From Caulobacter mirabilis (GTDB lineage: Bacteria > Pseudomonadota > Alphaproteobacteria > Caulobacterales > Caulobacteraceae): a stretch of 64,000 bases of DNA. How positions within the stretch are numbered: position 1 is the stretch's first letter; the number at the start of each line of letters is the position of its first letter. The stretch spans positions 3,763,001 through 3,827,000 of the forward strand of contig NZ_CP024201.1 of assembly GCF_002749615.1 (NCBI RefSeq), read 5' to 3'. The translations under genes were made by a program, and so were the position numbers. The notes below the pieces were generated by a model. It was not told the DNA's origin, searched no databases, and saw only the letters and a program-made list of their open reading frames with translations. This document shows, in pieces, positions 25,030 through 51,054 of this stretch.

Positions 25030-25032
25030 GCG

Positions 25033-27363: not shown

Positions 27364-27401
27364 CGCGTCGCCACGCTGCTGTCAGACAGGGGAAAACAAG
27401 A

Positions 27402-27450
27402 CGCGGGCGGACGGATTTGGTCAATCGCGGACCTTGTCCGTCCGCCCGCG
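27402..27450. terminator. 14-bp stem hairpin between receptor gene and GH20 gene
   Basis: CGCGGGCGGACGGA (27402-27415) pairs perfectly with TCCGTCCGCCCGCG (27437-27450) across a 21-nt loop that can form a further GGTC/GACC stem. No T-tract follows. It can be an attenuator or an mRNA-stabilising structure at the receptor 3' end. Confidence 0.65.
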
Positions 27451-27459
27451 CAGTAGGAA

Positions 27460-27485
27460 GGACCGGCCGCGCAAGAAGCCGGTCC
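27460..27485. terminator. Second hairpin just after the TonB receptor stop
   Basis: GGACCGGC (27460-27467) and GCCGGTCC (27478-27485) form an 8-bp stem with a 10-nt loop, 14 bp beyond the receptor stop codon. Together with the hairpin at 27402-27450 it makes a double structure in the 135-bp gap. Confidence 0.6.
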
Positions 27486-27498
27486 TCTGGAGGGAAGC

Positions 27499-30141: not shown

Positions 30142-30386
30142 TACCTGACCCTCCCTTTCAGTCCGGACACTGTCCGCAGCCGACCCAGAGCCCGAAACAA
30201 GACCAATTTGAAACCACAGCGTGGCCAAAACCCCAGGTCTCGGGCTCCCCCAACGCGAACTGTGATGAAAAATTGAAAGATGACAATACCAAAAAAGTAC
30301 AAATCGCAGATGTTCTGGCTATTGGTATTCGAATGGTCATGCCATAAGGTGCCGAAAGGTGGGGAACCTCGGAAGGGAGAGGCGGC
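30142..30386. promoter_or_regulatory. Divergent control region of the GlcNAc module with inverted repeats
   Basis: A 245-bp AT-rich gap between the TonB receptor and the GntR gene. AATACCAA at 30285-30292 and TTGGTATT at 30322-30329 are exact reverse complements. ATTCGAAT (30327-30334) is a palindrome right next to the second copy, and ATGG-TCATG-CCAT lies at 30333-30345. GntR/HutC-family GlcNAc regulators bind related TGGTAT/TGGTCT half-sites, so this is probably the operator region. The exact site is not proven. Confidence 0.55.
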
Positions 30387-31130
30387 GTGACGATGTTTTC
30401 CGAGCGGGTCGGGCGGCTCGACGAGCACGACCCCGCTCCGCTGTATCGCCAGCTGCAGCGCGCGCTGCGCGACGCCATCCAGTCCAAGGTCCTGGCGCCG
30501 GAAGACGCGCTGCCCGCCGAACGCGACCTGGCCGACGACTTCAAGGTTTCGCGCATCACCGTCCGCAAGGCGCTCGATGGCCTGGTCGCCGAGGGATTGC
30601 TCACGCGGCGGCAGGGCGCCGGGACCTTCGTCGCCGCGCGCGTAGAGAAGAGCTTCTCCAAGCTGTCCTCGTTCTCCGAAGACATGCTGTCCCGCGGGCG
30701 CACCCCGCACAGCGTCTGGCTGAACCGATCGGCCGGAACCGTGACACCGGAGGAGTCTCTGCGGCTGGGCCTGTCGCCCGGTTCGCCCGTCTACCGCTTC
30801 AACCGGATCCGCTACGCCGACGATGCGCCGATGGCGCTGGAGTATTCGACGGTGCCCGGCTTCACCCTGCCCTCGACCGAGGTCGTCGAGGCGTCGCTCT
30901 ACGAGGCGCTCGCTTCCCATGACGCCAGACCGGTGCGCGCCCTGCAGCGCCTGCGCGCGGTTCTGCTGAACGCCGAGCAGGCCCAGCTCATGGGCGTGCA
31001 GCCCGGCGATGCGGCCTTGCTGATAGAGCGCCGGGGGTTCGCCAAGGACGGCCGGACCGTGGAGTTCACCCAGTCCTACTACCGCGGCGACGCCTACGAC
31101 TTCGTCGCCGAACTCAATGATCTGTCTTGA
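30387..31130 (+). CDS. nagR: GntR family (HutC/UTRA type) regulator of GlcNAc genes
   Basis: A 247-residue regulator. The N-terminal winged helix includes LYRQLQRALRDAIQSK, the recognition helix VSRITVRKALDGLVAEG, and RRQGAGTFV. The C-terminal UTRA ligand domain contains YRFNRIRYADDAPMALEYS and ends EFTQSYYRGDAYDFVAEL. NagR/YvoA-type proteins sense GlcN-6-P or GlcNAc-6-P and repress GlcNAc genes. It starts at GTG 30387 (GGAAGGGAGAGG upstream; ATG 30393 is an alternative). Its stop overlaps the frame of the deaminase gene, and it is divergent from the receptor gene, so it probably regulates both arms. The symbol rests on context. Confidence 0.88.
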   Translation: MTMFSERVGRLDEHDPAPLYRQLQRALRDAIQSKVLAPEDALPAERDLADDFKVSRITVRKALDGLVAEGLLTRRQGAGTFVAARVEKSFSKLSSFSEDMLSRGRTPHSVWLNRSAGTVTPEESLRLGLSPGSPVYRFNRIRYADDAPMALEYSTVPGFTLPSTEVVEASLYEALASHDARPVRALQRLRAVLLNAEQAQLMGVQPGDAALLIERRGFAKDGRTVEFTQSYYRGDAYDFVAELNDLS

Positions 31131-31141
31131 AGAGGCCTGAC

Positions 31142-32215
31142 GTGGGAGTCTTGCTCAGCATGGAGTCGTCGAACGTGAAGCGGAACCCAGGCTCGCCGGA
31201 AGGCTCGCGGATGTTCCTCGAGACGGCGCAGGCGCCCGGAGCGGTCGCCGGCCAGCTCGAGATCAACGGCGAGCGGATGGCCCGCCTGGGCGCCCGGCTG
31301 CGCGAGATGAACCCGCGAGCGGTCGTCACCTGCGCCCGGGGCAGTTCGGACCACGCCGCCACCTATGGCCGCTATCTGCTGGAGATGCGGGCCGGCGTGC
31401 TGACCTCGTCCTTTTCGCCGTCGGTGAGCTCGGTCTACGCCCGCACGCCGAACTTCGAGGGCGTCGTCTATCTGGCCATCTCCCAGTCGGGCCGCAGCCC
31501 CGACCTGCTGGCCGCGACCGAAGCCGCCAAGAAGGCCGGCGCCTATGTCGTCGTCCTGGTCAACGACATCAACGCGCCGCTGGCCGAGCTGGCCGACGAG
31601 GCGATCCCCCTGCGCGCGGGTCCGGAAACCAGCGTCGCCGCGACCAAGTCCTACATCACCAGTCTGACGGCGCTGGCCAACCTGGCCGCAGCCTGGACCG
31701 ACGACAAGGCGCTGCTGTGCGCGCTGGACCAACTGCCCGAACAGCTGACCGAAGCGCTGGCGCTGGACTGGTCGCCGGCGGTCGAGGCCCTGGCGCCCGC
31801 GACCAACCTGTTCGTCATCGGCCGAGGACCAGGTTTCGGCGTCGCCCAGGAGGCGGCGCTCAAGCTGAAGGAGACCTGCGGCCTGCACGCGGAGGCGTTC
31901 AGCGCCGCCGAGGTGGCCCACGGCCCCCGCGCCCTGGTCAAGCCGGGCTTCCCGACCCTGGTCTTCGCCCAGGACGACGAGACGCGAGCCGGCGTCGAGG
32001 CCACCGCCGCCGACCTGGCCGCTCGGGGCGCCAACATGCTGTTCGCAGGCGTCAACGGCCCTGAAGGCGCGCTGCCGGCCCTGGCCGCGCATCCCGCGCT
32101 GGAGCCGATCCTGATGATCCAGAGTTTCTATCGCATGGCGAACGCGTTGTCCTTCCGGCGCGGGTTCGATCCCGACCAGCCGCCGAACCTGCGCAAAGTG
32201 ACCGAAACCCGCTGA
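31142..32215 (+). CDS. SIS-domain glucosamine-6-phosphate deaminase (NagB-II type)
   Basis: About 357 residues with two SIS domains related to the isomerase half of GlmS: VVTCARGSSDHAATYGRYLLE, AISQSGRSPDLLAATEAA, ETSVAATKSYITSL, then IGRGPGFGVAQEAALKLKE and GPRALV. It replaces the classical NagB and converts GlcN-6-P to fructose-6-P plus ammonia. Its place between nagR and nagA supports this over a GlmS role; the glutaminase domain is absent. I choose GTG 31142 (AGAGG six bases upstream). TTG 31127 and ATG 31160 are alternatives. Its stop overlaps the nagA start. Confidence 0.88.
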   Translation: MGVLLSMESSNVKRNPGSPEGSRMFLETAQAPGAVAGQLEINGERMARLGARLREMNPRAVVTCARGSSDHAATYGRYLLEMRAGVLTSSFSPSVSSVYARTPNFEGVVYLAISQSGRSPDLLAATEAAKKAGAYVVVLVNDINAPLAELADEAIPLRAGPETSVAATKSYITSLTALANLAAAWTDDKALLCALDQLPEQLTEALALDWSPAVEALAPATNLFVIGRGPGFGVAQEAALKLKETCGLHAEAFSAAEVAHGPRALVKPGFPTLVFAQDDETRAGVEATAADLAARGANMLFAGVNGPEGALPALAAHPALEPILMIQSFYRMANALSFRRGFDPDQPPNLRKVTETR

Positions 32216-33360
32216 TGATCACCGCGCTCGTCAACGGCCGCGTCCTGACGGAAGCCGGCGTCATCGAAGATCGCGTCGTCCTCATCGAGGACGGCCGCAT
32301 CCTGGCGCTCGCCGACGCCGCGCCGGAGGGCGCCCGGATCCAGGATCTGAGCGAGGGGCTGCTGCTGCCCGGCTTCATCGACACCCAGGTCAACGGCGGC
32401 GGCGGCGTGCTGTTCAACGATGCGCCTACGGTGGAGACCATCGAACGGATCGGCGCGGCGCATCGCCGCTTCGGCACGACCGGTTTCCTGCCGACCCTGA
32501 TCAGCGACGACCTCAGCGTGGTCCGGCAGGCGATCAAGGCGGTCGATGAAGCGATCGCGCGCGGCGTTCCGGGCGTCCTCGGGATCCACGTCGAAGGGCC
32601 CTTCCTGAACGCCCGGCGAAAGGGCATCCACGACTCGACCAAGTTCCGCGCCCTGGACGACGAAGCCTTCGAGGTCCTCACCGGTCTGGGGCGCGGCCGC
32701 ACCCTGGTCACCCTGGCGCCCGAAACCACGACGCCGGAGACGATTGCTCGACTGGCCGCAGCCGGCATCATCGTCTCCGCCGGCCACACCAACGCCACCT
32801 ACGCCACCATCCGGTCGGCGCTCGACAATGGCCTGCGCGGCTTCACCCACCTGTTCAACGCCATGTCCCCACTGACCCATCGCGAGCCGGGCGTGGTCGG
32901 CGCGGCGCTGGAAGACCGCCACGCCTGGTGCGGCCTAATCGTGGATGGCCGCCACGTCGCCCCGCCGGTCCTGCGGATCACCATGGCCGCGCGCCCGCGC
33001 GATCGCCTGATGCTGGTCACGGACGCGATGCCGAGCGTCGGCACCGACGAGACGACATTCGTCCTTCAGGGCCGCGCGATCAGCGTCCGCAACGGCGTCT
33101 GCGTCGATGAGCACGGCACGCTGGCGGGATCCCACCTCGACATGGCCTCGGCGGTGCGAAACACCGTCGGCCTGACCGGCGTCTCGCTGGCCGAGGCGTC
33201 GCTCATGGCGTCCGGCTCTCCGGCGGCCTTCCTGCGGCTGGAAACGGAACGCGGCGCCATCGCGCCGGGCCGACGCGCCGATCTGGTGCTGGCGGACGAC
33301 GAGTTGCGGGTGTTCGAGACCTGGATCGACGGCCGCCCTTCGGGAGCCCGCTTCGCCTAG
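32215..33360 (+). CDS. nagA: N-acetylglucosamine-6-phosphate deacetylase
   Basis: A 381-residue amidohydrolase. LPGFIDTQVNGGGGVLFND near residue 50, the metal-binding HVEGPFLN, GHTNA, and HLFNAMSPLTHREPG are all in place, followed by DAMPSVG and LAGSHLDMASAV. It removes acetate from GlcNAc-6-P to give GlcN-6-P for the SIS deaminase immediately upstream; the genes overlap at TGATG (32213-32217). It completes the GlcNAc route to fructose-6-P. Confidence 0.96.
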   Translation: MITALVNGRVLTEAGVIEDRVVLIEDGRILALADAAPEGARIQDLSEGLLLPGFIDTQVNGGGGVLFNDAPTVETIERIGAAHRRFGTTGFLPTLISDDLSVVRQAIKAVDEAIARGVPGVLGIHVEGPFLNARRKGIHDSTKFRALDDEAFEVLTGLGRGRTLVTLAPETTTPETIARLAAAGIIVSAGHTNATYATIRSALDNGLRGFTHLFNAMSPLTHREPGVVGAALEDRHAWCGLIVDGRHVAPPVLRITMAARPRDRLMLVTDAMPSVGTDETTFVLQGRAISVRNGVCVDEHGTLAGSHLDMASAVRNTVGLTGVSLAEASLMASGSPAAFLRLETERGAIAPGRRADLVLADDELRVFETWIDGRPSGARFA

Positions 33361-33462: not shown

Positions 33463-34209
33463 ATGCTAGACGACCTGACGCGCGCGACGGTTTTCCGGTT
33501 CCTGCAAGACGCCCAGGGACTCTCTTCCCTTGAGGAGCTGAACCGGCGCTTCATGGGCGCGGTGCAGGCCATGGGGTTCACTGGAGCGGTCTACATCCGC
33601 CTGTCGGCGAACGGTCAGGCCCTGCCGCCCCGTCCCGTGTTCGGCGAGCCGCCGCCAGGCTGGGTCGACCACTACTTCGCCAACAACTACGCCCGGTTCG
33701 ACACCGCCATTCCGATGTCGTTCCAGTCGCGCGAGCCGTTCACCTGGAGCGAGGCCGCCCTGCGCGGCGTCGATCGCAAGACCGACACCCTGTTCGGCGA
33801 GGCCTTCGAGTGGTGGAACTCCGAAGTCCTCATCTGCCCGGTTCGCGGCATCAACGGCGGGCTGTCGATCGTCGATCTGACCATGGAGCGCGGCCGGCAG
33901 CTCAGCGAGATGGAGCGCTCGACCGCGCACGCCCTGGCCAGCCTCTACGCGGTGGCCGGCGAGGGCTTCATGGAAGCCCCTGCGCCCCAGCCCACGCTGG
34001 AGAAGGCGCTGACCCAGCGCGAGATGGAATGCGTCTACTGGGTCTGCCTGGCCAAGTCGGACGATGAGATCGGCCAGATTCTGTCGATCTCCCGCAAGAC
34101 GGCCAACCACCACATAGAGGCGGCCAAGGCCAAACTGGGCGCGGGCAGCCGCGCGAATCTGGCCTGGCGCGCCTTCGCCCTGGGTCTGGTGCAGCCGCCG
34201 CTCTTCTGA
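33463..34209 (+). CDS. LuxR-type acyl-homoserine-lactone-responsive regulator
   Basis: A 248-residue protein with an N-terminal autoinducer-binding domain and a C-terminal LuxR helix-turn-helix. In the first domain, the Tyr/Asp/Trp pocket is seen in YARFDTAIP and EPFTWSE, and VRGINGGLSIVDL corresponds to the conserved Gly region. The DNA-binding part runs from LTQREMECVYWVCLAKSDDE through SRKTANHHIEAAKAKLGA. It lies directly upstream of a LuxI-type synthase with 80 bp between. The region before its ATG (GGGGCAGCCCC at 33451-33461) can fold over the ribosome binding site. Confidence 0.92.
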   Translation: MLDDLTRATVFRFLQDAQGLSSLEELNRRFMGAVQAMGFTGAVYIRLSANGQALPPRPVFGEPPPGWVDHYFANNYARFDTAIPMSFQSREPFTWSEAALRGVDRKTDTLFGEAFEWWNSEVLICPVRGINGGLSIVDLTMERGRQLSEMERSTAHALASLYAVAGEGFMEAPAPQPTLEKALTQREMECVYWVCLAKSDDEIGQILSISRKTANHHIEAAKAKLGAGSRANLAWRAFALGLVQPPLF

Positions 34210-34218
34210 CGCCTCGCA

Positions 34219-34236
34219 ATGGGGTGAAAGCCCCAT
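34219..34236. promoter_or_regulatory. Inverted repeat upstream of the luxI-type gene, possible LuxR site
   Basis: ATGGGG-tgaaag-CCCCAT is an 18-bp dyad with 6-bp arms, 54 bp ahead of the synthase start and just after the luxR-type stop. The size and position suit a lux-box-like operator for positive autoregulation. The composition differs from the classical lux box, and it could equally be a small hairpin. Confidence 0.45.
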
Positions 34237-34289
34237 AGTCGGTTTTCGCCGCCTCGCCGACCGTGCCTTCCGCAATCGGGAGGTCGGTC

Positions 34290-34988
34290 ATGATCCACGT
34301 CGTCACCCACGAACAACGGCCGTTCTACGCGGTCCAGCTGGAGGCGATGCATCGACGCCGGCGCGAGGTCTTCATCGACGAACGCGGCTGGAACCTCGAG
34401 GAACGCAACGGCGGCGAATACGACCCCGGCGACGACGATCAGGCCATCTATCTGATGATGCTCGATATCGCCGGGCGCCTGCAGGTGTCCGTCCGCGTCA
34501 GGCCCGTCCTGGACTGGAGCATCCTGATCGACGAGATGCCGGGCTGTGTGGAGGGCGACGCCGAGACTCTGCGCCGCGCCGATGTCTGGGAAATGGCCCG
34601 GCACCTCGCCAACGGCGCCGGCAGCGCGATCGGCGAAGCCCGCACCCGCGCCGCCGAGTTCCGCATCGCCCTTCTGGAAGCCGCCCGCGAGCATGGCGTC
34701 AACCGGCTGGTCGGTTCGGTCGACGTCGGACTTCTCGCCCACGGCATCCGCGCCTGGCTGGACCTGAAGCCGCTCGGCGTTCCGGTGGTCTACCCCGAGG
34801 GCGGCGCCGCTGTCGGCTACGAGATCCCGGTGACCGACGATCTCATCGCCCGGTTGCGCGCGATGCACGGCATTCACGAGGCCGTCGCCTACGAAATGAC
34901 TGGTCTTCCGCCCGGCGGGCTGACCCCCGCGATTCTCGAACAAGCCATGCGCGCAGACCGCTCCTGGCCCCTCAGGAAAGTCGCATGA
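34290..34988 (+). CDS. LuxI-type acyl-homoserine-lactone synthase
   Basis: A 232-residue autoinducer synthase. The invariant residues fall at the same numbers as in the prototype: Arg24, Phe28, Trp34 (RRREVFIDERGW), acidic residues Asp45 and Asp48 (EYDPGDDD), Arg71, and Glu101/Arg104 (ADVWEMARHL). It makes an acyl-homoserine lactone from S-adenosylmethionine and an acyl donor in the cytoplasm. ATG 34290 has GGGAGG seven bases upstream, so I reject the earlier start at 34263. Its stop overlaps the next small gene (ATGA at 34985). The acyl group cannot be predicted. Confidence 0.94.
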   Translation: MIHVVTHEQRPFYAVQLEAMHRRRREVFIDERGWNLEERNGGEYDPGDDDQAIYLMMLDIAGRLQVSVRVRPVLDWSILIDEMPGCVEGDAETLRRADVWEMARHLANGAGSAIGEARTRAAEFRIALLEAAREHGVNRLVGSVDVGLLAHGIRAWLDLKPLGVPVVYPEGGAAVGYEIPVTDDLIARLRAMHGIHEAVAYEMTGLPPGGLTPAILEQAMRADRSWPLRKVA

Positions 34989-38211: not shown

Positions 38212-38712
38212 ATGACCGATGAGACCTTCCAGTGGGGGCCGCTGGCCAGCGAACCCCTGTGCGTCGCCGACTTCCGGGTCGAAGGCCCGATCATGCCGCT
38301 GGGCCAGTCGCCCTTTGGCGACCGCAAGGTGGGCTACGTCACCGGAGGCTCATTCGAGGGGGCGCGGCTGAAAGGGGAGATCCTGCCCGGCGGCGGCAAC
38401 TGGTCGACCAACGGTGCGCTGGACGCCGGTCAGGGGGTGGGGACCTTCGACGCCCGGGCTCTGTGGCGGACCGAGGACGGGGCGATGATCTACGTCACCT
38501 ACACCGGCCGCAGCCTGATCTCCGACGCCGTGATCAAGGCGTTCCGCGATCCGAACGCCGGGCCGGTCGATCCCTCGCGCTACTATATCCGCATCGCCCC
38601 CGTCTTCGAGACCAGCGACCCCCGCTACGCCTGGCTCAACGGCATACTGGCCGTGGGCTGCGGCCAGCGGATGCCCTGGGGCATCCGCCACTGGATGTTC
38701 GCGATTAGGTAG
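38212..38712 (+). CDS. DUF3237 family protein, copy 1
   Basis: A 166-residue protein. The family pattern is clear: GSFEGARLKGEILPGGGNW, then RALWRTEDGAMIYVTYTGR, YYIRIAPVFETSDPRYAWLN and AVGCGQRM near the end. DUF3237 proteins form an eight-stranded barrel of unknown activity. They are frequently found in aromatic and terpenoid degradation clusters of sphingomonads and relatives, so a substrate-processing role is likely. It lies 42 bp after the Rieske gene and 9 bp before the CoA ligase. A second copy is at 42715. Confidence 0.9.
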   Translation: MTDETFQWGPLASEPLCVADFRVEGPIMPLGQSPFGDRKVGYVTGGSFEGARLKGEILPGGGNWSTNGALDAGQGVGTFDARALWRTEDGAMIYVTYTGRSLISDAVIKAFRDPNAGPVDPSRYYIRIAPVFETSDPRYAWLNGILAVGCGQRMPWGIRHWMFAIR

Positions 38713-42635: not shown

Positions 42636-42714
42636 GAATTATTGAGACAGATTTCGGCGCGGTCCGCAAGATTTGAGCGAACGCCGGATTGCCGAGCGTC
42701 GCCGGGGAGAGGAA

Positions 42715-43212
42715 ATGACGGGGAACAACAAGGGCTTGGCGACCCGACCGCTGTGCACGGTCGACATCCGTCTGGAGGACGCCGCGCCGATCGTCGTCGG
42801 CAAGACCCCCTGGCGAAACCGTCGGATCAGCCACATCGCCGGCGGCGTCTTCACGGGCGACCGGCTCAAGGGCGTGGTTCATCCGGGCGGGGCCGACTGG
42901 TCGGAAGGCGGCGCCAATGCCGCCGGCGACGTCCTGACCCTGGTCGACGTCCGCGCGCTATGGACCACCGACGACGGGGCCCAGATCTATGTGGTCTACG
43001 CCGGCCGCCTGAACATCCCCGCCGGCGCGCTGGCCGACTTCCGCGACCCGGCCAAGGTCGAAACCCTGCCCGACGACGCCTACTACTTCCGCACCCTGGT
43101 CACCTTCGAGACGGCCGCTCCCCGGTACAGCTGGCTGAACGAGATCACCGCCGTCGGCGTCGGCCGCCGCACCATCGCGGGCGTGCGCTACGACATCGCG
43201 GAGGTGCTGTGA
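42715..43212 (+). CDS. DUF3237 family protein, copy 2
   Basis: A 165-residue paralogue of the protein at 38212: GGVFTGDRLKGVVHPGGADW, RALWTTDDGAQIYVVYAGR, YYFRTLVTFETAAPRYSWLN and a final AVGVGRRT. I take ATG 42715, which follows GGGGAGAGGAA, rather than the earlier frame start at 42673. Its stop overlaps the ATG of the MFS gene (TGATG at 43210-43214). It is first in a tightly overlapped six-gene operon up to 48530. Activity unknown. Confidence 0.9.
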   Translation: MTGNNKGLATRPLCTVDIRLEDAAPIVVGKTPWRNRRISHIAGGVFTGDRLKGVVHPGGADWSEGGANAAGDVLTLVDVRALWTTDDGAQIYVVYAGRLNIPAGALADFRDPAKVETLPDDAYYFRTLVTFETAAPRYSWLNEITAVGVGRRTIAGVRYDIAEVL

Positions 43213-44573
43213 TGAGCGCCCAACCCGTCGAGCCTCTCGCACCGGCCCCGCAAGTCCCCGGCGAACCGCCGTGGCCCAAGCCGGCCTACGCCTGGTACGT
43301 CGTGGGCGTGCTGATGTTCGCCTACACCCTGTCGTTCATCGACCGGATGATCCTCAGCCTGCTGGTCGCCCCGATCAAGGAGGCGCTGCAGATCAGCGAC
43401 ACCCAGATCAGCCTCCTGGTCGGGATGGCCTTCGCCATCTTCTACACCCTGCTCGGCCTGCCGCTGGGCTGGCTGGCCGACCGCAGCAACCGCCGCAACA
43501 TCATCGCCGCCGGCATCGCCCTGTGGAGCGCCATGACCGCCGCGTGCGGCCTGGCGGGCGGCTACGCCACCCTGTTCCTGGCGCGGATGGGCGTCGGCGT
43601 CGGCGAGGCGACCCTGTCGCCCTCGGCGTTCTCGATGCTCAGCGACTACTTCCCGCGCCACCGTCTGGCTCGCGCCATCGCGGTCTATTCGATCGGCGTG
43701 CCGCTGGGCTCGGGCATCGCTCTCATCCTGGGCGCCTTCATCATCAAGGCGGTGCTGGCCTCGCCGCCGGTCCACCTGCCGATCCTGGGCGAGGTCGACG
43801 CCTGGCGGATGATCTTCTTCTGGGTCGCCGCGCCCGGGCTGCTGGGCACGCTGCTGATGTTCACGGTGAAGGAGCCCTTCCGCCGCGGCCAGACCAAGCA
43901 GGCCAGCGCCCTGCCCGGCAAGGACCTGGTGATCTTCCTGCGCCGGCACGGCGGAGCGGTCTGGTGCCACATCTTCGGCATGAGCCTGATCACGATCGTG
44001 ATGTACGGCCTGCTGGCCTGGACTCCGTCCTTCCTGGTCCGCAGCTACGGCATGGATATCTCCAACGCCGGCCTGTGGTTCGGGGCCATCACCGGCCTGT
44101 GCGGCGCGGGCGGCATCCTGCTCGGCGGCTGGGTCGCCGACCGCATGTTCGCCAAGGGCCGGCGCGACGCCCACCTGCGCACCATGCGGCTGTCGATCCT
44201 GCTCGGCGGGCCCCTGGTCGTGCTGATGCCGTTCATGCCGACCGCCGGCCTGGCCATCGCGGTGCTGGTCCCGGCCATGCTGCTGATGACCATGCACGGC
44301 ATCGCCGCCGGCGCCCTGCAGCTGATCGCCCCGAACGAGCTGCGCGCCCAGATCAGCGCGGTGTTCGTCTTCGTCGTGAACCTGATCGGCCTGGGCCTTG
44401 GGCCGACGGCCATGGCCCTGGCGACCGACTTCGTGTTCCGCGACGACGCGGCGCTGCGCTGGTCGATCGCCCTGGTCGCCGCGATCTCGCTGTCGCTCGG
44501 CGCCCTGGTGCTGACCCTCGGCCTCAAGCCCTTCGCCCGCAGCGTCGAGGCCGCCGAGAACGGCTTCAAGTGA
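43212..44573 (+). CDS. MFS transporter (spinster-like family)
   Basis: A 453-residue inner-membrane carrier with 12 predicted hydrophobic segments. Its MFS motif A is GLPLGWLADRSNRRNI between helices 2 and 3, and motif ARMGVGVGEATLSPSAFSML is typical of spinster-type carriers. TLSFIDRMILSLLVAPIK is in helix 1. Carriers of this group occur next to TonB receptors in aromatic degradation clusters and import the substrate from the periplasm. It overlaps the gene before it, and its own stop overlaps the kinase start (TGATG at 44571-44575). Confidence 0.92.
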   Translation: MSAQPVEPLAPAPQVPGEPPWPKPAYAWYVVGVLMFAYTLSFIDRMILSLLVAPIKEALQISDTQISLLVGMAFAIFYTLLGLPLGWLADRSNRRNIIAAGIALWSAMTAACGLAGGYATLFLARMGVGVGEATLSPSAFSMLSDYFPRHRLARAIAVYSIGVPLGSGIALILGAFIIKAVLASPPVHLPILGEVDAWRMIFFWVAAPGLLGTLLMFTVKEPFRRGQTKQASALPGKDLVIFLRRHGGAVWCHIFGMSLITIVMYGLLAWTPSFLVRSYGMDISNAGLWFGAITGLCGAGGILLGGWVADRMFAKGRRDAHLRTMRLSILLGGPLVVLMPFMPTAGLAIAVLVPAMLLMTMHGIAAGALQLIAPNELRAQISAVFVFVVNLIGLGLGPTAMALATDFVFRDDAALRWSIALVAAISLSLGALVLTLGLKPFARSVEAAENGFK

Positions 44574-45571
44574 TGACGACGCAGGACCAGGACATTCTCG
44601 ACGCCCTCGCCCGCCTGGGCCTGGACCCGCGCCCGCCGGTCCAGCGCCTGTCGGGCGGGGTCTCCTGCGATGTGCTCCGCGTCGAGCTGGCGGACGGCCC
44701 GGTCTGCGTGAAACGCGCCTTGCCGCAGCTCAAGGTCGCCGCCGACTGGAAGGCCCCGGTCGAGCGATCGCACAGCGAGGTGCTTTGGCTGAAAGCCGTC
44801 CAGGACATCCCCGGCGTGATCGCGCCGCACGTCCTGGCCGAGTCGGAGGCCGACCACCTGTTCGTGATGTCCTGGTTCGACGCCGCCGACCACCCGGTCT
44901 GGAAGTCGCAGCTCGCCGCCGGCTTCGTCGATATCGGCCTGGCGCGGCAGCTGGGCGCGGCCCTGGCGGCGATCCATTCGACCACCGCCCGCAAACCGGA
45001 AATGGCCGCCGACTTCGCCACCGGCGACCTGTTCCACGCCCTGCGGCTGGAGCCCTATCTGCTGCACACGGCCAAGGCCCATCCGGACCTCGCAACGCGC
45101 CTGACCGCACTTGCGGAGCGCACCCTGGCGACCGGCAAGGCGCTGGTGCACGGCGACGTCAGCCCCAAGAACATCCTCGCCGGTCCGGACGGTCCGGTCT
45201 TCCTCGACGCTGAATGCGCCTGGTGGGGCGAGCCGGCCTTCGACCTGGCCTTCTGCCTGAACCATCTGCTGCTGAAGGGCGTCTGGAAGCCCGCGCACAT
45301 TCCCGCCTACCTCGCCGCCTTCGAGGCGCTGAAGAGCGCCTACATGGCGGGCGTCGACTGGGAGCCCGCCGCCGACCTCGACCGGCGCGTCGCCGCGCTG
45401 CTTTCGGCGCTGCTGCTGGCGCGGGTCGATGGAAAATCGCCAGCGGAATACTTGACCAGCGACCGTGACAAGGACTTCGTCCGAACCGCGGCCCACAGCT
45501 TCGTCCAGCAGGACAATCTCGACCTGGCGAGCCTCGCCGGGCAATGGACCGACAGGGTGCAGAGCTTATGA
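44573..45571 (+). CDS. APH/choline-kinase fold phosphotransferase
   Basis: A 332-residue small-molecule kinase. The catalytic loop is ALVHGDVSPKNIL (His-Gly-Asp...Asn) near residue 195, followed by the metal-binding FLDAECAWWGEPAFDLA. The N-lobe Lys is in VCVKRALPQL. The family includes aminoglycoside phosphotransferase, methylthioribose kinase and homoserine kinase-like enzymes. The position, overlapping the MFS gene and the enolase paralogue on either side, suggests that it phosphorylates the imported compound or a derived alcohol. Antibiotic resistance is unlikely in this context. Substrate unknown. Confidence 0.85.
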   Translation: MTTQDQDILDALARLGLDPRPPVQRLSGGVSCDVLRVELADGPVCVKRALPQLKVAADWKAPVERSHSEVLWLKAVQDIPGVIAPHVLAESEADHLFVMSWFDAADHPVWKSQLAAGFVDIGLARQLGAALAAIHSTTARKPEMAADFATGDLFHALRLEPYLLHTAKAHPDLATRLTALAERTLATGKALVHGDVSPKNILAGPDGPVFLDAECAWWGEPAFDLAFCLNHLLLKGVWKPAHIPAYLAAFEALKSAYMAGVDWEPAADLDRRVAALLSALLLARVDGKSPAEYLTSDRDKDFVRTAAHSFVQQDNLDLASLAGQWTDRVQSL

Positions 45572-46881
45572 AGACCGAAATCGTCTCCGTGAAAGGCCGC
45601 CAGATCTGGGACTCGCGCGGCCGTCCCACCGTGGAGGCGGAAGTGACCCTGGCCGGCGGCGCCATCGGGCGCGGCCTGGCCCCGGCCGGCGCCTCGCGCG
45701 GCGCGCACGAAGCCATCGACCTCCGGGACGGCGGCCACCGCTTCGGCGGCATGGGCGTCGACCGCGCCGTGGCGGCCGTCAACGGCGAGCTGGCCAAGGC
45801 TTTGACCGGCCTCGACGCCGCCGACCAGGACGGCGCCGACCGCGTCATCGTCGACCTGGACGGCACCGCCAACAAGGCTCGCCTAGGCGCCAACGCCACC
45901 GTGGCCCTGTCGATGGCCGTGCTCAACGCCGCCGCCGCCGCCGAGGGCCTGCCCCTGTGGCGTTACCTGTCCCAGGGCGCGCGGGTGCGCGTGCCCCTGC
46001 CCGAGATCCAGATCTTCGGCGGCGGCGCCCATGCGGGTCGCCGCACCGACGTTCAGGACTTCATGGTCATGGTTCCGCACGCCGACACCGTCCGGAAGGC
46101 GCTGGAGGTGACCGCCGACGTCTACCGCGCCGCCGGCGCTCTGATGGAGGAGACCGGCCGCCTGTCCGGCACCGCCGACGAAGGCGGCTGGTGGCCGAAC
46201 TTCTCGTCCAACGAGGAGGCGCTGGTCGCCCTGGTCCAGTCGATCGAGAAGGCCGGCTACCGCCCGGGCGAGGACGTCTACATCTCGCTGGACGTCGCCG
46301 CCAACGAACTGTTCCACGAGGGCGGCTACCGCCTGCCGCTGGACAACGCCCAGCTCGACAGCGCCGCCATCGTCGAGCGGGTCGCCCGCTGGGCCCGCGA
46401 GTATCCGATCCTGTCGATCGAGGATCCGGTCTCGCAGGACGACATGACCGGCATGACCGACGCCACCCGCCGCCTGGGCGACACCGTCCAGATCATCGGC
46501 GACGACTTCCTGGTCACCAACGCCGGCCGGGTCGAAATCGCCGCCGCCCAGGGCGCCTGCAACGCCGTGCTGGTGAAGGTGAACCAGGCCGGGACCGTCT
46601 CCGAGGCCAAGCGCGCCCTGGAGGCCGCCCGCGCCAAGGGCTGGAGCACGATTGTCTCCGCCCGCTCGGGCGAGACCGAGGACGTCACCATCGCCCACCT
46701 GTCCACCGGTTGGGACGCCGGCCAGCTGAAGGTCGGTTCGTTCGCCCGTTCCGAGCGGATGGCGAAGTGGAACGAGTTGTTGCGGATCGAGGACGCCATG
46801 GGCGCCGACGCCGTGTTCGCCGGCGCCTCGGCCTTCCCGGCCGCTGTGGCCGCCAACCTCACCCGGGCGAAGGCCGCGTGA
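45568..46881 (+). CDS. Divergent enolase paralogue
   Basis: A 437-residue enolase-fold protein of full length, alignable throughout with glycolytic enolase. Retained: loop Ser43, His155, Glu205 (ADEGGW), metal ligands Asp242, Glu285 and Asp312, catalytic Lys337 (KVNQAG), Arg366-Ser367 and Lys388. Altered: the canonical QEFM is QDFM (Asp164 for Glu), SHRSGETED is SARSGETED (Ala365 for His), and the loop SGASTG is AGASRG. The proton-abstracting machinery is intact, but the pocket around the leaving hydroxyl and phosphate has changed. I infer dehydration of a different, perhaps larger phosphorylated hydroxyacid made by the kinase whose stop overlaps the ATG at 45568. Confidence 0.88.
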   Translation: MKTEIVSVKGRQIWDSRGRPTVEAEVTLAGGAIGRGLAPAGASRGAHEAIDLRDGGHRFGGMGVDRAVAAVNGELAKALTGLDAADQDGADRVIVDLDGTANKARLGANATVALSMAVLNAAAAAEGLPLWRYLSQGARVRVPLPEIQIFGGGAHAGRRTDVQDFMVMVPHADTVRKALEVTADVYRAAGALMEETGRLSGTADEGGWWPNFSSNEEALVALVQSIEKAGYRPGEDVYISLDVAANELFHEGGYRLPLDNAQLDSAAIVERVARWAREYPILSIEDPVSQDDMTGMTDATRRLGDTVQIIGDDFLVTNAGRVEIAAAQGACNAVLVKVNQAGTVSEAKRALEAARAKGWSTIVSARSGETEDVTIAHLSTGWDAGQLKVGSFARSERMAKWNELLRIEDAMGADAVFAGASAFPAAVAANLTRAKAA

Positions 46882-47825
46882 AGGCGGTCCTGCAGTACCG
46901 GGCCAGCCCCGGCTTCCTGGCCAGCCTGGACGCCGAGGGCGCCCGCGCCGGCCTGACGGTCGTCGCCGTCGACGAGCAGGACGACGCCGCCTTCGCCCGC
47001 GAGATCGCCGACGCCGACGCCCTGCTGCACGTCCTGAAACCTGTGACGGCGGCGATGATGGACGCCGCGCCGAACCTCAAGCTGATCCAGAAGATCGGCG
47101 TCGGCGTGAACACCATCGATCTCGAAGCAGCCAAGGCCCGCGGGGTCGCGGTGGCCAACATGCCCGGGACCAACAGCCAGGCGGTGGCCGAGATGGCCCT
47201 GACCCTGATGCTGGCGACGCTGCGGCGCGTGACCTACTTCGACCCGCTGACTCGCGCCGGCGAGGGCTGGCGGCCGGACCTGGCGATGCTGGACGGCGTC
47301 GGCGAGATCGCCGGCAAGACCGTGGGCTTCGTGGGCTACGGCGCCTCGCCGGAACGGCTGGCGCCGGCCCTGCAGGCGCTGGGCGCGCAGATCGTCTACC
47401 ACGCCACCGCGCCCAAGCCGGATCGGATCGGGCGGTTCGTCGGCCTGGATGAGCTGCTGGCGATCTCGGACATCGTCTCGCTGCACGTTCCTGCGACGGC
47501 CGAGACGCGCGGCATGATCGGCGCCGAAGCCCTGGCCAGGATGAAGCCCAGCGCGATCCTGGTGAACACCGCCAGGGGCGAGATGGTCGACGAGGCGGCT
47601 CTGCATGCGGCGCTGAGCAGCGGCCGCCTGCGCGGCGCGGGCCTGGACGTCTTCGCCGCCGAGCCTGTGGCGCGGGACAACCCGTTGCTGACCCTGCCCA
47701 ACGTCGTGGCCATGCCTCACGTCGCCTGGCTGACGCCCGAGACGCTGGAGCGCAGCCTGGCCGTCGCCTTCGAGAACTGCCGGCGCGTCCGCGACGGCGA
47801 ACCCCTGCTTCACCGAGTGATCTAG
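46878..47825 (+). CDS. D-isomer-specific 2-hydroxyacid dehydrogenase
   Basis: A 315-residue NAD(P)-dependent dehydrogenase of the D-2-hydroxyacid family. The catalytic residues are in VNTARGEMVDEAAL (Arg), LDVFAAEP (Glu) and MPHVAWLTPE (His-Trp). The Rossmann loop reads GFVGYGASPERLA, so the third Gly of the usual GxGxxG is replaced. It interconverts a 2-oxoacid and a D-2-hydroxyacid. GTG 46878 overlaps the enolase stop. As the product of the enolase would tautomerise to an oxoacid, this enzyme could act directly after it. Confidence 0.9.
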   Translation: MKAVLQYRASPGFLASLDAEGARAGLTVVAVDEQDDAAFAREIADADALLHVLKPVTAAMMDAAPNLKLIQKIGVGVNTIDLEAAKARGVAVANMPGTNSQAVAEMALTLMLATLRRVTYFDPLTRAGEGWRPDLAMLDGVGEIAGKTVGFVGYGASPERLAPALQALGAQIVYHATAPKPDRIGRFVGLDELLAISDIVSLHVPATAETRGMIGAEALARMKPSAILVNTARGEMVDEAALHAALSSGRLRGAGLDVFAAEPVARDNPLLTLPNVVAMPHVAWLTPETLERSLAVAFENCRRVRDGEPLLHRVI

Positions 47826-47828
47826 ACC

Positions 47829-48530
47829 GTGCCCGAACGCCCCTCCGTCGTCCTCATCCCCAGCCAGCTCCAGAACGCGCAGACCTGGGGGCCGCAGATC
47901 GCGGCGCTCGGCGGCGACTACGACTTCCACGTCGCCGACAACACCAGGGACGACACGATCGCCGGCATCGCCTCGCGATTGCTGGCGGTATCGGCCCCGA
48001 CGTTCGACCTGGTCGCGCACGGCATGGGCGGCTTCGTCGCCCTGGAGGTCCTGCGCCAGGCGTCCGAGCGAGTGCGCAGCCTGGTGCTGATGTCGACCCT
48101 GGCCCCCAACGACGGCCCGGCCCAGACTGAACGCCGGCAGGGCTACATCAAGCTGGTCGAGGACGGGAACTTCGCCGGGGTGATCGAGGAGCGCATCCCG
48201 ATCCTGGTCCACGCCGCCCGTCGCGAGGACGAACCGCTGCTGGCCGTGCTGCGCCGGATGGCCGAGGACACCGGACCGGACATCTTCCTGCGTCAGCAGC
48301 GCGCCATCATGGCCCGGATCGACAGCCGGCCGTCGCTGGCCGCCATCACCTGCCCGCTGCTGCTGGTCCGCGGCGCCGAGTGCGGCATCACCACCCAGGC
48401 GCACCAGGACGAGATCCTGGCCGCAGTCCCTCAAGTCCGCCTGGAGACGGTCGAGAACAGCGGCCATATGGTGACGCTGGAGATGCCTTGGACGATCAAC
48501 CGCCTGCTGGCGGATTGGCTGGCGCGGTGA
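47829..48530 (+). CDS. Alpha/beta hydrolase-fold protein lacking the nucleophile
   Basis: A 233-residue alpha/beta hydrolase. The nucleophile elbow reads AHGMGGFVAL where GHSMGG is expected, so Gly65 replaces the catalytic Ser. The acid position reads LLLVRGAECGITT, with Cys in place of Asp. The His is kept (ENSGHMVTLEMP). It is therefore either inactive as an esterase or uses the fold for other chemistry, such as a non-hydrolytic lyase or binding role. GTG 47829 starts 3 bp after the dehydrogenase stop. It is the last gene of the six-gene operon. Confidence 0.85.
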   Translation: MPERPSVVLIPSQLQNAQTWGPQIAALGGDYDFHVADNTRDDTIAGIASRLLAVSAPTFDLVAHGMGGFVALEVLRQASERVRSLVLMSTLAPNDGPAQTERRQGYIKLVEDGNFAGVIEERIPILVHAARREDEPLLAVLRRMAEDTGPDIFLRQQRAIMARIDSRPSLAAITCPLLLVRGAECGITTQAHQDEILAAVPQVRLETVENSGHMVTLEMPWTINRLLADWLAR

Positions 48531-48651: not shown

Positions 48652-49704
48652 TTAAGCCCCCAGCTCCTTCCGCACGATCGCGGCGCCGTCGGCCATGGCC
48701 TTCAGCTTGGCGAAGGCGACTTCGCGGCTGTGATATTTCATGCCGCAGTCCGGAGCGACGATGATCTGCTCGGGCCGGGCGTACTGCAGCGCCTCGCGGA
48801 TACGGTCGGCGACCAGTTCCGGCGTCTCGACCGTCGGATCGTTCAGGTCGATCACCCCGTACATGATGCGCTTGTTCGGCAGCCCCTTGAGCACCGCCGG
48901 GTCGAGCCGCGGCTGAGCCGCCTCGATCGAGATGATATCGGCCCGGCTGTTCTCCAACTCGGTCAGGAAGTCGTAGTCCGAGGGCTTGGCCGCGCCGTGA
49001 TGCACGTGGGCGTAGCCGAAGCAGATGTGCAGCGCGGTCAGACCGGTGACGCCCTCCAGCGCCCGGTCGATCGCCTTCACGGCATAGTGACGCGCCTTCT
49101 CGGCCCGCGCCTGGAGGTAGGGTTCGTCGAGCTGGACGATGTCCACGCCGGCCGCGAACAGGTCCTTGATCTCCTCGTTGACGGCCACGGCGTAGTCCAT
49201 CGCCAGGGCCTCGTCGTCGGCGTAGTGATCGTTCTGCGCCTGCTGCGTCATGGTGAAGGGACCCGGCAGGGTGATCTTCACCCAGCCCTTGGACCGCTGC
49301 TTCAGGAAGGCGGCGTCCTGGGCCTCGATCGGGCCGCGGCGACGGATCGGACCGGCCACGCGGGGGACCGGATTGGGGGCGCCGGTGCGGTCCATCGCCA
49401 CACCCGGAATGTCGATGTCGATGCCCTCCAAGGCGTTGGCCAGCCGGTTGGAATAGCTCTCGCGCCGCATCTCGCCGTCGCCGACGATGTCGATGCCGGC
49501 CAGCTCCTGATCGCTGATCGCCATCAGCGTCGCGGCCTCCTGGGCATCGGCCAGCCAGGGCTCGGGAATCCGCCAAAGCTCCCGCGCCCGCACACGCGGC
49601 GGCAGGCGGCTCTTCAGGCCCTCCCGGTCGATCAGCCAGTCGGGCTGAGGGTAGCTCCCGACGATCGTTGTGGGGAGAAGAGGGAGGCCGGCCAGCTTGT
49701 CCAT
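48652..49704 (-). CDS. MetE-like (cobalamin-independent methionine synthase C-terminal domain) methyltransferase
   Basis: A 350-residue single-domain protein matching only the catalytic half of MetE. The zinc ligands are His226 and Cys228 (HICFGY), Glu261 (SIEAAQP) and Cys320 (APDCGMKY). The N-terminus LLPTTIVGSYPQPDWL is the family start. Full MetE is more than twice as long, so this is a core-MetE or alkyl-transferase type protein. Its relatives transfer methyl or alkyl groups to thiols. In an island with a VanA-like demethylase it could move a methyl group from the substrate. ATG 49704 is divergent from the MarR gene. Confidence 0.88.
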   Translation of the reverse strand: MDKLAGLPLLPTTIVGSYPQPDWLIDREGLKSRLPPRVRARELWRIPEPWLADAQEAATLMAISDQELAGIDIVGDGEMRRESYSNRLANALEGIDIDIPGVAMDRTGAPNPVPRVAGPIRRRGPIEAQDAAFLKQRSKGWVKITLPGPFTMTQQAQNDHYADDEALAMDYAVAVNEEIKDLFAAGVDIVQLDEPYLQARAEKARHYAVKAIDRALEGVTGLTALHICFGYAHVHHGAAKPSDYDFLTELENSRADIISIEAAQPRLDPAVLKGLPNKRIMYGVIDLNDPTVETPELVADRIREALQYARPEQIIVAPDCGMKYHSREVAFAKLKAMADGAAIVRKELGA

Positions 49705-49733
49705 GGACGAAATCGTCGCCTTTGCAGAAATAC

Positions 49734-49745
49734 TTCGATATCTAT
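49734..49745. promoter_or_regulatory. Regulon palindrome, site 3, weak (TTCGATATCTAT)
   Basis: Two mismatches from site 1, with the GATATC core kept. It lies in the 165-bp divergent region between the MetE-like gene (start 49704) and the MarR gene (start 49870). A weaker site at the regulator's own promoter would suit autoregulation. Confidence 0.5.
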
Positions 49746-49869
49746 GTATCTGACATGAATGGACGCCGGTTGGCAATCGAGGCTGCATACCTTCGGTTGA
49801 CAGCCCGGACAGGCTCGTAAAAGTCGAGCCAGACTGACAAGCGTCGCGATTCCTCGCGCAGGGCACGAA

Positions 49870-50355
49870 ATGAGCGACCGCGAAACCGATCGATTCTACG
49901 CCGATCCCAACAACAGCCTGGGCTATCTCAGCCGGATCGCCTTCCGCTCGTTCTCCCGGGCGCTCGAATCACGCACCGCGCCGCACGGGGTCACCAGCGG
50001 CCAATGGCGCTTCCTCCGGGTCCTGTGGATCGAGGACGGCATCACCCAGCGCGAACTCAGCCGTCGGGTCGGCATGCGCGAGCCCACGACCGTCACGGCG
50101 CTGAAAAGCCTGGAGCGCAGCGGCTTCGTCCGCCGCGAGCAGAGCACCGAGGACCGCCGCAAGGTTCACGTCTTCCTGACTCCGGTCGCCAAGAAGCTAG
50201 AGAAGACCCTGCGTCCTCACGTCCAGGAAGTGAACGAACTGGCCACGCGCGGCATGACGCCGGATGAGGTGCTGGAGCTGCGCCGCCTGCTGGCGCTGGT
50301 CGGACGCAACCTGGCCGAGGAAGCCGAGGGCGTGGCGGCCGACACCGGCGCCTGA
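49870..50355 (+). CDS. MarR family transcriptional regulator, probable master regulator of the island
   Basis: A 161-residue MarR protein. The winged helix runs from GITQRELSRRVGMREPTTVT through ALKSLERSGFVRREQS to the wing EDRRKVHVFLTPVAKKL. N- and C-terminal helices form the dimer domain. It is the only transcription factor among the genes from 35682 to 61484, sits in the middle of them, and has a variant of the shared TTAG-N4-CTAA palindrome in its own promoter region. MarR proteins bind such short dyads and release them on binding a phenolic or CoA-ester effector, so it is the natural candidate for the repressor. Confidence 0.9.
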   Translation: MSDRETDRFYADPNNSLGYLSRIAFRSFSRALESRTAPHGVTSGQWRFLRVLWIEDGITQRELSRRVGMREPTTVTALKSLERSGFVRREQSTEDRRKVHVFLTPVAKKLEKTLRPHVQEVNELATRGMTPDEVLELRRLLALVGRNLAEEAEGVAADTGA

Positions 50356-50429: not shown

Positions 50430-50984
50430 TCAGGCCGCGACGGTCGCCCGACGCGGCTCATGGGCGACATCGGCCTCGGTGAAGCCGTCGTGGGTCCAGG
50501 CCGCGAACTCCAGGCAGACGCCATCGGGATCGAAGAAGTAGACCGAGCGAACATAGACCTCGTCGGTCATCTCGGGGCTGGTCTGGGTCTCGGAGTTGTC
50601 GTGATTGAGGATCGGGGTGACCGGCACGCCCTTGGCCTTGAGGCGCTGATAGTATTCCTCGAATTTCTCGGCCGGGACCTTGATCGCCAGATGGTTCAGC
50701 GAACCGTGCGCCGAGACGAACGATCCCTGGGTCGGCAACGCCGCCGGGGCCGCGACGCCAGGCTCGTAGCCGGGAGCCTCCGGGAACCAGAAGAAGGCGA
50801 TCGAGTCGCCGTTGCCGCAGTCGAAGAAGAAATGCTGACCGCGATTGCCCGGCAGCTCCAGCGTCTTGATCAGCGGCATGCCGAGGATGTCGCGATAGAA
50901 CTCGACCGTCTTGGCCATGTCCCGGCACACGAGGGCGACGTGGTGCACGCCCCCGAACTGGAACTCCTTGTTTTCGGCGGTCAT
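50430..50984 (-). CDS. VOC family protein, glyoxalase/extradiol dioxygenase type
   Basis: A 184-residue vicinal-oxygen-chelate protein with two beta-alpha-beta-beta-beta modules. The putative metal ligands are His in GGVHHVALVCRD, His in SLNHLAIKVP and Glu in DPDGVCLEFAAW, the H-H-E pattern of extradiol dioxygenases and related enzymes. The length is nearer to small one-domain dioxygenases or glyoxalases than to catechol 2,3-dioxygenase. ATG 50984 follows GGAGGAA. It is divergent from the FMN reductase gene over regulon site 4. With the MhpD-like hydratase nearby, ring cleavage is plausible but not proven. Confidence 0.85.
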   Translation of the reverse strand: MTAENKEFQFGGVHHVALVCRDMAKTVEFYRDILGMPLIKTLELPGNRGQHFFFDCGNGDSIAFFWFPEAPGYEPGVAAPAALPTQGSFVSAHGSLNHLAIKVPAEKFEEYYQRLKAKGVPVTPILNHDNSETQTSPEMTDEVYVRSVYFFDPDGVCLEFAAWTHDGFTEADVAHEPRRATVAA

Positions 50985-51054
50985 GGCTTCCTCCGGTTCT
51001 TTTCTGTTCGCCATTGTTGTCCGCAGCCTATACCAAACGGCCGAATTCGATAAG

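Follow-up and report, generated by a model that had tools for sequence, protein, structure and literature searches.

Enolase is usually treated as one reaction served by one gene. An enolase paralogue recruited for another enol phosphate is the enolase-like carboxyphosphonoenolpyruvate synthase of bialaphos biosynthesis. In the stretch of DNA analysed here (the window: 64,000 nt of contig NZ_CP024201.1 of Caulobacter mirabilis, whose genome forms a single contig of 4.58 Mb), a second enolase gene, eno2, overlaps the end of a gene for a kinase of APH fold, and the comparisons below, made at the level of sequence, indicate that this kinase and non-canonical enolase are a real, conserved module. 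On balance we think it probable that the module takes in glycerate, as one or other enantiomer, and gives out phosphoenolpyruvate (PEP).

Glycerate kinases of classes I, II and III are described in excerpts of PMC2063504. The reaction that we propose for the window kinase, glycerate to 2-phosphoglycerate, is also theirs, but this kinase belongs to a different family (APH) from class I (PF02595), class II (MOFRL, PF05161) or class III. Its nearest named NCBIfam model describes another APH-type enzyme, S-methyl-5-thioribose kinase (TIGR01767), but its score (53.5 bits) is far under the cut-off of 275, and there were no methionine-salvage genes among the neighbours named. A further relevant system is the non-phosphorylating L-fucose/L-rhamnose route, which employs a 4-dehydrogenase and an FAH-type hydrolase and ends in pyruvate and L-lactate (PMC11199699, in excerpt). 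Genes for an SDR and an FAH protein likewise lie beside kinase and eno2 in five clusters, but a hexonate would there give glycerate, which the pair could take up. Among open-licence papers, no publication on the pair was found under kinase–enolase operon, L-glycerate kinase, or L-2-phosphoglycerate with enolase. The features of the pair are:

44573–45571 (+): APH-fold small-molecule kinase, 332 aa, ATG start (Pfam APH, PF01636)
45568–46881 (+): enolase paralogue, eno2, 437 aa, of the D164/A365 subfamily (Pfam, NCBIfam, alignment)
45568–45571 (+): ATGA start/stop overlap of kinase and eno2 (sequence)

These coordinates, reading frames and overlap are as given in a preliminary description of the locus. 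Eno2 has the whole enolase fold (PF00113 and PF03952) and 40–46% identity to enolases: it matches Enolase_N (1.4e-46) and Enolase_C (2.4e-84), and an AlphaFold2 model (mean pLDDT 94.1, pTM 0.93) aligns with solved enolases at Foldseek TMq values of 0.88–0.95 among the 50 chains listed. On the NCBIfam model 'eno' (TIGR01060) it scores 472.5 bits against a cut-off of 300, so automatic annotation would label it as the housekeeping enolase; in all eight annotated plasmid regions that show an eno2, the gene is annotated as 'eno, phosphopyruvate hydratase'. The window protein retains the metal ligands D242, E285 and D312, together with K337, K388, E205, R366 and S367, and so has equivalents of the Mg ligands, the catalytic Lys345 and Lys396, Glu211 and the phosphate-binding Arg/Ser of housekeeping enolases. 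It departs from them in having D164 for the active-site Glu168 and A365 for His373 (numbering from the published enolase–PEP structure, transferred to eno2 by motif), in its kinase partner, in changes typical of its main branch, and in not being the sole eno of its genome. A canonical eno with a normal active site, 45% identical to eno2, lies elsewhere (G000 C1:2401711–2402976, − strand). Its presence, which the preliminary description had proposed to check, and the replacement of two leaving-group residues throughout the subfamily bear out the suggestion made there that eno2 is unlikely to be the housekeeping enzyme.

The position of these changes is informative. In the structure of Synechococcus enolase with PEP, a water 3.5 Å from C3 is held by Glu168 and His, with the base, a lysine, on the opposite side (PMC8996150, in excerpt). 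As eno2 keeps the lysines and metal ligands but is altered at the Glu168 and His373 positions, the side that abstracts the proton is the same as in enolase, and it is the side of the leaving group that has been rebuilt. (For mutants of Glu168 or His373, the open-licence literature yielded a reference-list entry only.) Among 84 enolases chosen by similarity in the loci described below (L012–L099), D164 was found in all 83 readable rows and A365 in all 80. When later loci were added and duplicates removed, 130 distinct enolase rows remained, of which 117, including the window, had Asp at Glu168 (116 Asp/Ala and one incomplete Asp row) and 13 were canonical Glu/His. No mixed row, Asp/His or Glu/Ala, occurred among the 130, which argues that the substitutions are more than chance. 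D242, E285, D312, K337 and E205 are kept in 117 of 117 eno2 rows, R366 and S367 in 116 and K388 in 115, the exceptions being incomplete rows. What had been noticed in the window alone, namely retention of the catalytic Lys, metal ligands and Glu205 with Asp for Glu and Ala for His, thus extends to the subfamily.

The same cannot be said of an arginine in the mobile loop, to which the preliminary description also drew attention: it is present in the window (R44, for the loop Thr), but only 21 of the 117 eno2 rows have it (T in 80, K in 12, M in three, I in one), these being distributed over other eno2 branches as well as the window's own. Near-constant changes in the main branch are Q148, G151, A203, W209 and W401, and two further mobile-loop residues, Arg158 and Arg159, are found in 103 and 107 of the 117 rows, respectively. 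The main branch is characterized by Arg158/Arg159, Trp209, Phe392 and Trp401, but these are not characteristic of a divergent Asp/Ala set (L013, L135, L171, L172 and the Rhodococcus, Methylobacterium and Haladaptatus copies). An Asn-to-Arg change in the motif DSRGRP was considered as a diagnostic of eno2 and rejected, the same Arg being present in the Synechococcus enolase construct (PMC8996150, in excerpt). In quick trees, the canonical rows fell on one side of a branch with support of 99 (with long-branch warnings), and the window eno2, with that of L152, joined a branch of copies from G042, G165, G320, G630, G406 and G960 (SH-aLRT 94).

The association of eno2 with the kinase was assessed at 88 loci (L012–L099), made up of the best 80 of 173 kinase relatives from a scan of genome contigs (from Acetobacteraceae, other Rhodospirillales, Burkholderiales and others) and eight from the window's order. 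Eno2 adjoins the kinase gene in 85, in the order kinase–eno2 in 83 and eno2–kinase in two; at the other three, the contig ends no more than 85 bp from the kinase. The kinase-to-eno2 gap has a median of 0 nt and is 30 nt or less in 77 of the 83 cases. The idea that kinase and enolase belong together, originally drawn from the window alone, is therefore well founded. Outside these 88 loci, the pair is separated in G593, G769, G711 and Rhizobium and Cupriavidus plasmids, with eno2 elsewhere or 4–9 kb off. The kinase (at E ≤ 1e-20) was found in nine of 299 genomes of the window's order, 39 of 385 of its class and nine of 398 of its phylum, the C. mirabilis genome being counted each time, and eno2 accompanies it in 35 of the 38 other class-level kinase genomes (judged mostly by identity, and in G522 by locus L111). 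Plasmid records containing the module come from Rhizobium, Azospirillum, Cupriavidus, Rhodococcus, Paracoccus, Roseibium, Methylobacterium and Haladaptatus, kinase and eno2 adjoining or lying within about 7 kb of each other in the regions read.

The surroundings on some of these plasmids deserve brief mention. Those of Rhodococcus (L184, L189), Rhizobium (L185, L186) and Cupriavidus (L188, unannotated) have catabolic clusters around the module, which variously hold FAH proteins, an NAD(P)H-dependent oxidoreductase, an alcohol dehydrogenase and a VOC protein, with PEP carboxylase in Rhizobium only. On the Haladaptatus plasmid (L197), kinase and eno2 are found in an island that is rich in genes of the mandelate racemase family and also encodes PdxA, a four-carbon acid kinase and an IlvC-like protein. 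A plasmid of Enterobacter chuandaensis (L194, 8872–17835) carries a distant kinase homologue (37%) and no annotated eno, in a run resembling a small biosynthetic cluster that also has a U32 peptidase, an aminotransferase, an iron-containing redox enzyme and an MFS protein.

The kinase itself is recognized by Pfam as APH (PF01636, 6.6e-16), the only other match being a sub-threshold one to PF03881; neither PF02595 (class I glycerate kinase) nor PF05161 (class II) was matched. It has HGDVSPKN at residue 193, which we take to be the Brenner-type HGD catalytic loop of APH-type kinases, and DAE at residue 212. The closest named kinase locus among the 80 kept from the contig scan is on a Phenylobacterium contig (65%).

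In the scheme that we propose, the kinase would phosphorylate the 2-hydroxyl of glycerate with ATP, and eno2 would remove the 3-hydroxyl of the resulting 2-phosphoglycerate as water to give PEP, which would enter central metabolism. The evidence for the two ends of this scheme comes from neighbouring genes; representatives of these were assigned to families with Pfam and NCBIfam, and the families were then mapped at each locus. The best hint that the product is PEP is provided by plasmids of Rhizobium sp. Pop5 and R. indicum, on which ppc, a dehydrogenase gene and the kinase gene are co-directional, with eno2 about 4.5 kb further on, on the other strand. The Pop5 ppc product aligns with E. coli PEP carboxylase at 474 bits, and its PEP carboxylase motifs are in place.

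For the substrate, the indications are from sugar-acid clusters. Kinase, eno2 (always Asp/Ala), FAH and SDR genes, with an upstream LacI gene, occur together in five: those of G042, G165, G320, Paracoccus seriniphilus and Roseibium aggregatum. The FAH protein of G042 has L-2,4-diketo-3-deoxyrhamnonate hydrolase as its closest relative of solved structure (280 bits, the next being at 171), and it scores 334 bits on the NCBIfam model of that hydrolase, under the cut-off of 500. An FAH/SDR route acting on a hexonate might therefore end in pyruvate and glycerate in these clusters, the glycerate feeding kinase and eno2. Two of the clusters are linked to agar. G042 has two flanking agarase-type proteins (PF17992) and a porphyranase-type protein, and G165 has one agarase-type protein; in both, the agarase-type proteins and a 3,6-anhydro-L-galactonate cycloisomerase are found within about 30 kb of the pair (in G042, the cycloisomerase is 8 kb away, at 378 bits to 5xd7). 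At E ≤ 1e-75, this cycloisomerase is present in only two of the 299 genomes of the order, G042 and G165, both of which are among the nine with the kinase, an overlap with a chance of about 0.0008 if the two were independent. The bacterial 3,6-anhydro-L-galactose route yields 2-keto-3-deoxy-L-galactonate, the L form (PMC11219438, in excerpt), and the SDR 4-dehydrogenase of the L-fuconate route also accepts L-2-keto-3-deoxygalactonate (PMC11199699, in excerpt). Oxidation at C4 followed by hydrolysis would convert 2-keto-3-deoxy-L-galactonate to pyruvate and L-glycerate, and as the product of the cycloisomerase is of the L form, the glycerate in the agar-linked clusters would be L.

This leads us to prefer, tentatively, the idea that the pair converts L-glycerate via L-2-phosphoglycerate to PEP, every reaction being deduced from gene context and residues. 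The L enantiomer is also favoured by the rebuilt leaving-group face of the enzyme and by the consideration that a second enolase would be superfluous for D-2-phosphoglycerate. Eno2 might then dehydrate L-2-phosphoglycerate with the acid/base roles of the two active-site faces exchanged, a suggestion that we make with still more reserve. This stereochemical view of the active site is a matter of reasoning and not of modelling, and several observations tell against an L-glycerate module. The closest solved relatives of the G042 SDR are SDRs without a function in their names, making its link to the published 4-dehydrogenase putative, and G042 also has, about 3 kb upstream of the kinase on the same strand and beyond the LacI gene, a D-galactonate-dehydratase-like gene (3rr1, 224 bits), which could mean that D-glycerate is formed. 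There is no FAH/SDR pair adjoining the window's own cluster, and ppc is present in only two of nine annotated plasmid regions read. The D-2-hydroxyacid dehydrogenase family, the commonest third component, is D-specific, and the 2-dehydropantoate-reductase-like family found beside the pair in Burkholderiales loci is R-specific; both would suit D-glycerate. Finally, G302, G615 and G636 carry the kinase but only a canonical eno. Two of these kinases, from G302 and G636, share a branch with the window kinase (support 92, with long branches), so that canonical enolase may handle the product in these two genomes; G636 even groups VOC, MarR, kinase, dehydrogenase and DUF3237 genes, which speaks for a product there that canonical enolase can use.

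The distribution of the MOFRL D-glycerate 2-kinase was examined as a possible discriminator between the enantiomers (in 31 of the 38 class-level kinase genomes other than C. mirabilis, with 13 and 7 controls hand-picked from genomes without a kinase match) and was rejected as such. Outside the window's order, MOFRL was found in 27 of 31 kinase genomes and 11 of 13 controls, a similar share, so the pair does not look like a MOFRL substitute. Within the order it was found in none of nine kinase genomes and none of seven without the kinase, and the argument therefore says nothing there; a class I glycerate kinase was found in one of 60 genomes tested in that order. Moreover, G302, G615 and G636 have neither MOFRL nor a class I enzyme, as if the kinase had replaced MOFRL, and thus point towards D, and known MOFRL kinases use L-glycerate at 13–34% of the rate with D (PMC2063504, in excerpt), so that their presence separates D from L less sharply.

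The chief competitor is a pair of isozymes for D-glycerate, in which the dehydrogenase would reduce hydroxypyruvate to D-glycerate, the kinase would add a fourth class, of APH type, to the D-glycerate 2-kinases, and ordinary 2-phosphoglycerate would be the substrate of eno2 as a pathway-specific enolase. This would account for a D-2-hydroxyacid dehydrogenase being near the pair in at least 51 of 85 loci (some loci being short), for the three genomes with the kinase and neither eno2 nor MOFRL (two of whose kinases branch with that of the window), and for the C. mirabilis genome, where a search for MOFRL and class I glycerate kinases found neither (class III was not searched for); the dedicated ppc genes of the two Rhizobium clusters show that an operon of this kind can include an isozyme of a central enzyme. 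We nevertheless find it rather doubtful: an isozyme should not need the replacement, in all eno2 rows, of two residues kept in 13 of 13 canonical rows; of the 28 class-level genomes tested that have both kinase and eno2 (the latter partly told by identity), 27 also possess MOFRL, so that the job would be done twice; and the agar-linked clusters predict the L form. Unlikely, too, is an ATP-dependent dehydratase for larger 2,3-dihydroxy acids (tetronates, tartrate, aldonates) giving a substituted enol phosphate, which is closest to the original proposal of a novel phospho-hydroxyacid. It would make sense of the opening of the C3 side by Glu168-to-Asp and His373-to-Ala, of Arg158 and Arg159 in the mobile loop, which could bind a carboxylate, and of the four-carbon acid kinase, PdxA, IlvD-family dehydratase and tripartite carboxylate transporter receptor encoded near some loci. 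However, there is no common fourth enzyme for a substituted enol phosphate among the clustered neighbours. Dehydration of aldonates by the pair lost weight because the G042 and Inquilinus clusters already have a conventional dehydratase, although none adjoins in the Paracoccus and Roseibium clusters, and because PEP carboxylase lies beside the kinase in two plasmids.

Two further alternatives concern eno2 alone. It might eliminate some other leaving group at C3 (sulfonate, for example, from sulfolactate) to give PEP, which would agree with the ppc neighbour and with a leaving-group face that is altered and, in the main branch, Arg-rich; but the common neighbours named include no sulfite-handling gene (none was searched for as such) and the FAH/SDR clusters point to glycerate, and we hold this very improbable. 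Even less credible is a regulatory or structural eno2 without catalysis, as the loss of two conserved active-site residues might imply, because the catalytic Lys, Glu205, metal ligands and phosphate Arg/Ser are kept in every complete row. The outline of the preliminary description, phosphorylation followed by elimination, is probably right, whereas its product is probably PEP made from a 2-phosphoglycerate (possibly the L enantiomer) and not a novel enol phosphate. Nor does the dehydrogenase seem to be the next enzyme in line, as was suggested there: it is near the pair in at least 51 of the 85 loci, and at others the pair is adjoined by a 2-dehydropantoate-reductase-like protein or an SDR. 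Any part that it plays would more probably come before the pair, in the supply of a 2-hydroxy acid.

Whichever of these readings holds, eno2-type genes should not be taken for glycolytic enolase on their annotation alone. With two constant active-site changes and the same kinase, the subfamily extends through Alpha- and Betaproteobacteria to Rhodococcus and at least one haloarchaeon. If the substrate is glycerate, the kinase would found a new glycerate kinase class and eno2 would be an enolase of catabolism; if it is L-glycerate, eno2 would carry out a textbook reaction with its stereochemistry inverted, filling a gap in L-hexose and agar catabolism, and the module would provide a bacterial route for assimilating L-glycerate, for example from the 3,6-anhydro-L-galactose of agar. 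Whether ordinary 2-phosphoglycerate is the product of the kinase is a question for which G302, G615 and G636 are natural test cases.

In the window, the pair is part of a longer run, the other genes of which, with those just beyond it, are:

42673–43212 (+): DUF3237 protein, 179 aa, its stop overlapping the MFS gene at a GTG taken as the start of the latter (Pfam)
43209–44573 (+): MFS transporter, 454 aa, GTG start assumed; its stop and the kinase start share 1 nt (TGATG)
46878–47825 (+): D-2-hydroxyacid dehydrogenase, 315 aa, its GTG start sharing 4 nt (GTGA) with the end of eno2 (Pfam, NCBIfam)
47829–48530 (+): alpha/beta hydrolase, 233 aa, 3 nt past the dehydrogenase (Pfam, NCBIfam)
48652–49866 (−): stand-alone MetE C-domain-like protein (Pfam)
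49870–50355 (+): regulator, presumably of the MarR type, kept in the G022 and G137 clusters
50430–51014 (−): VOC/glyoxalase-fold protein, kept in the G022 and G137 clusters (Pfam)

Six plus-strand genes, from DUF3237 to the hydrolase, are tightly packed: four successive overlaps (4, 1, 4 and 4 nt) are followed by a gap of 3 nt. The MFS transporter has its best NCBIfam match to a D-galactonate transporter model (TIGR00893, 133 bits, under the cut-off of 395). The dehydrogenase matches PF02826 and PF00389 and contains ARGEMVDE, DVFAAEP and MPHVAWLT, presumably of the R/E/H triad type. Genes for the VOC, MarR and MetE-like proteins, hydrolase, dehydrogenase, eno2 and kinase all co-occur in G022 and G137 as well, but in G137 (L013, 990–10453) the dehydrogenase (39%) and eno2 (48%) are divergent and the order is dehydrogenase–eno2–kinase. 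This suggests that a catabolic route of the window type needs the kinase–eno2 module and has acquired it repeatedly.

Some minor observations can be added. The MetE-like protein appears to have intact Zn ligands. The same catabolic region contains two DUF3237 proteins (38212–38712 and 42673–43212), and DUF3237 genes also adjoin the kinase in G636 (L146) and on a Phenylobacterium contig (L020). Elsewhere in the window, a reading of the translations points to N-acetylglucosamine/chitin utilisation-like genes at 20807–33360 (PTS proteins, hexosaminidase, TonB receptor, GntR, SIS deaminase and deacetylase) and to neighbouring LuxR-type regulator-like and autoinducer synthase-like genes at 33463–34988. 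A tRNA-Pro(CGG) call at 14358–14456 (−) spans 99 nt, which is above the usual length.

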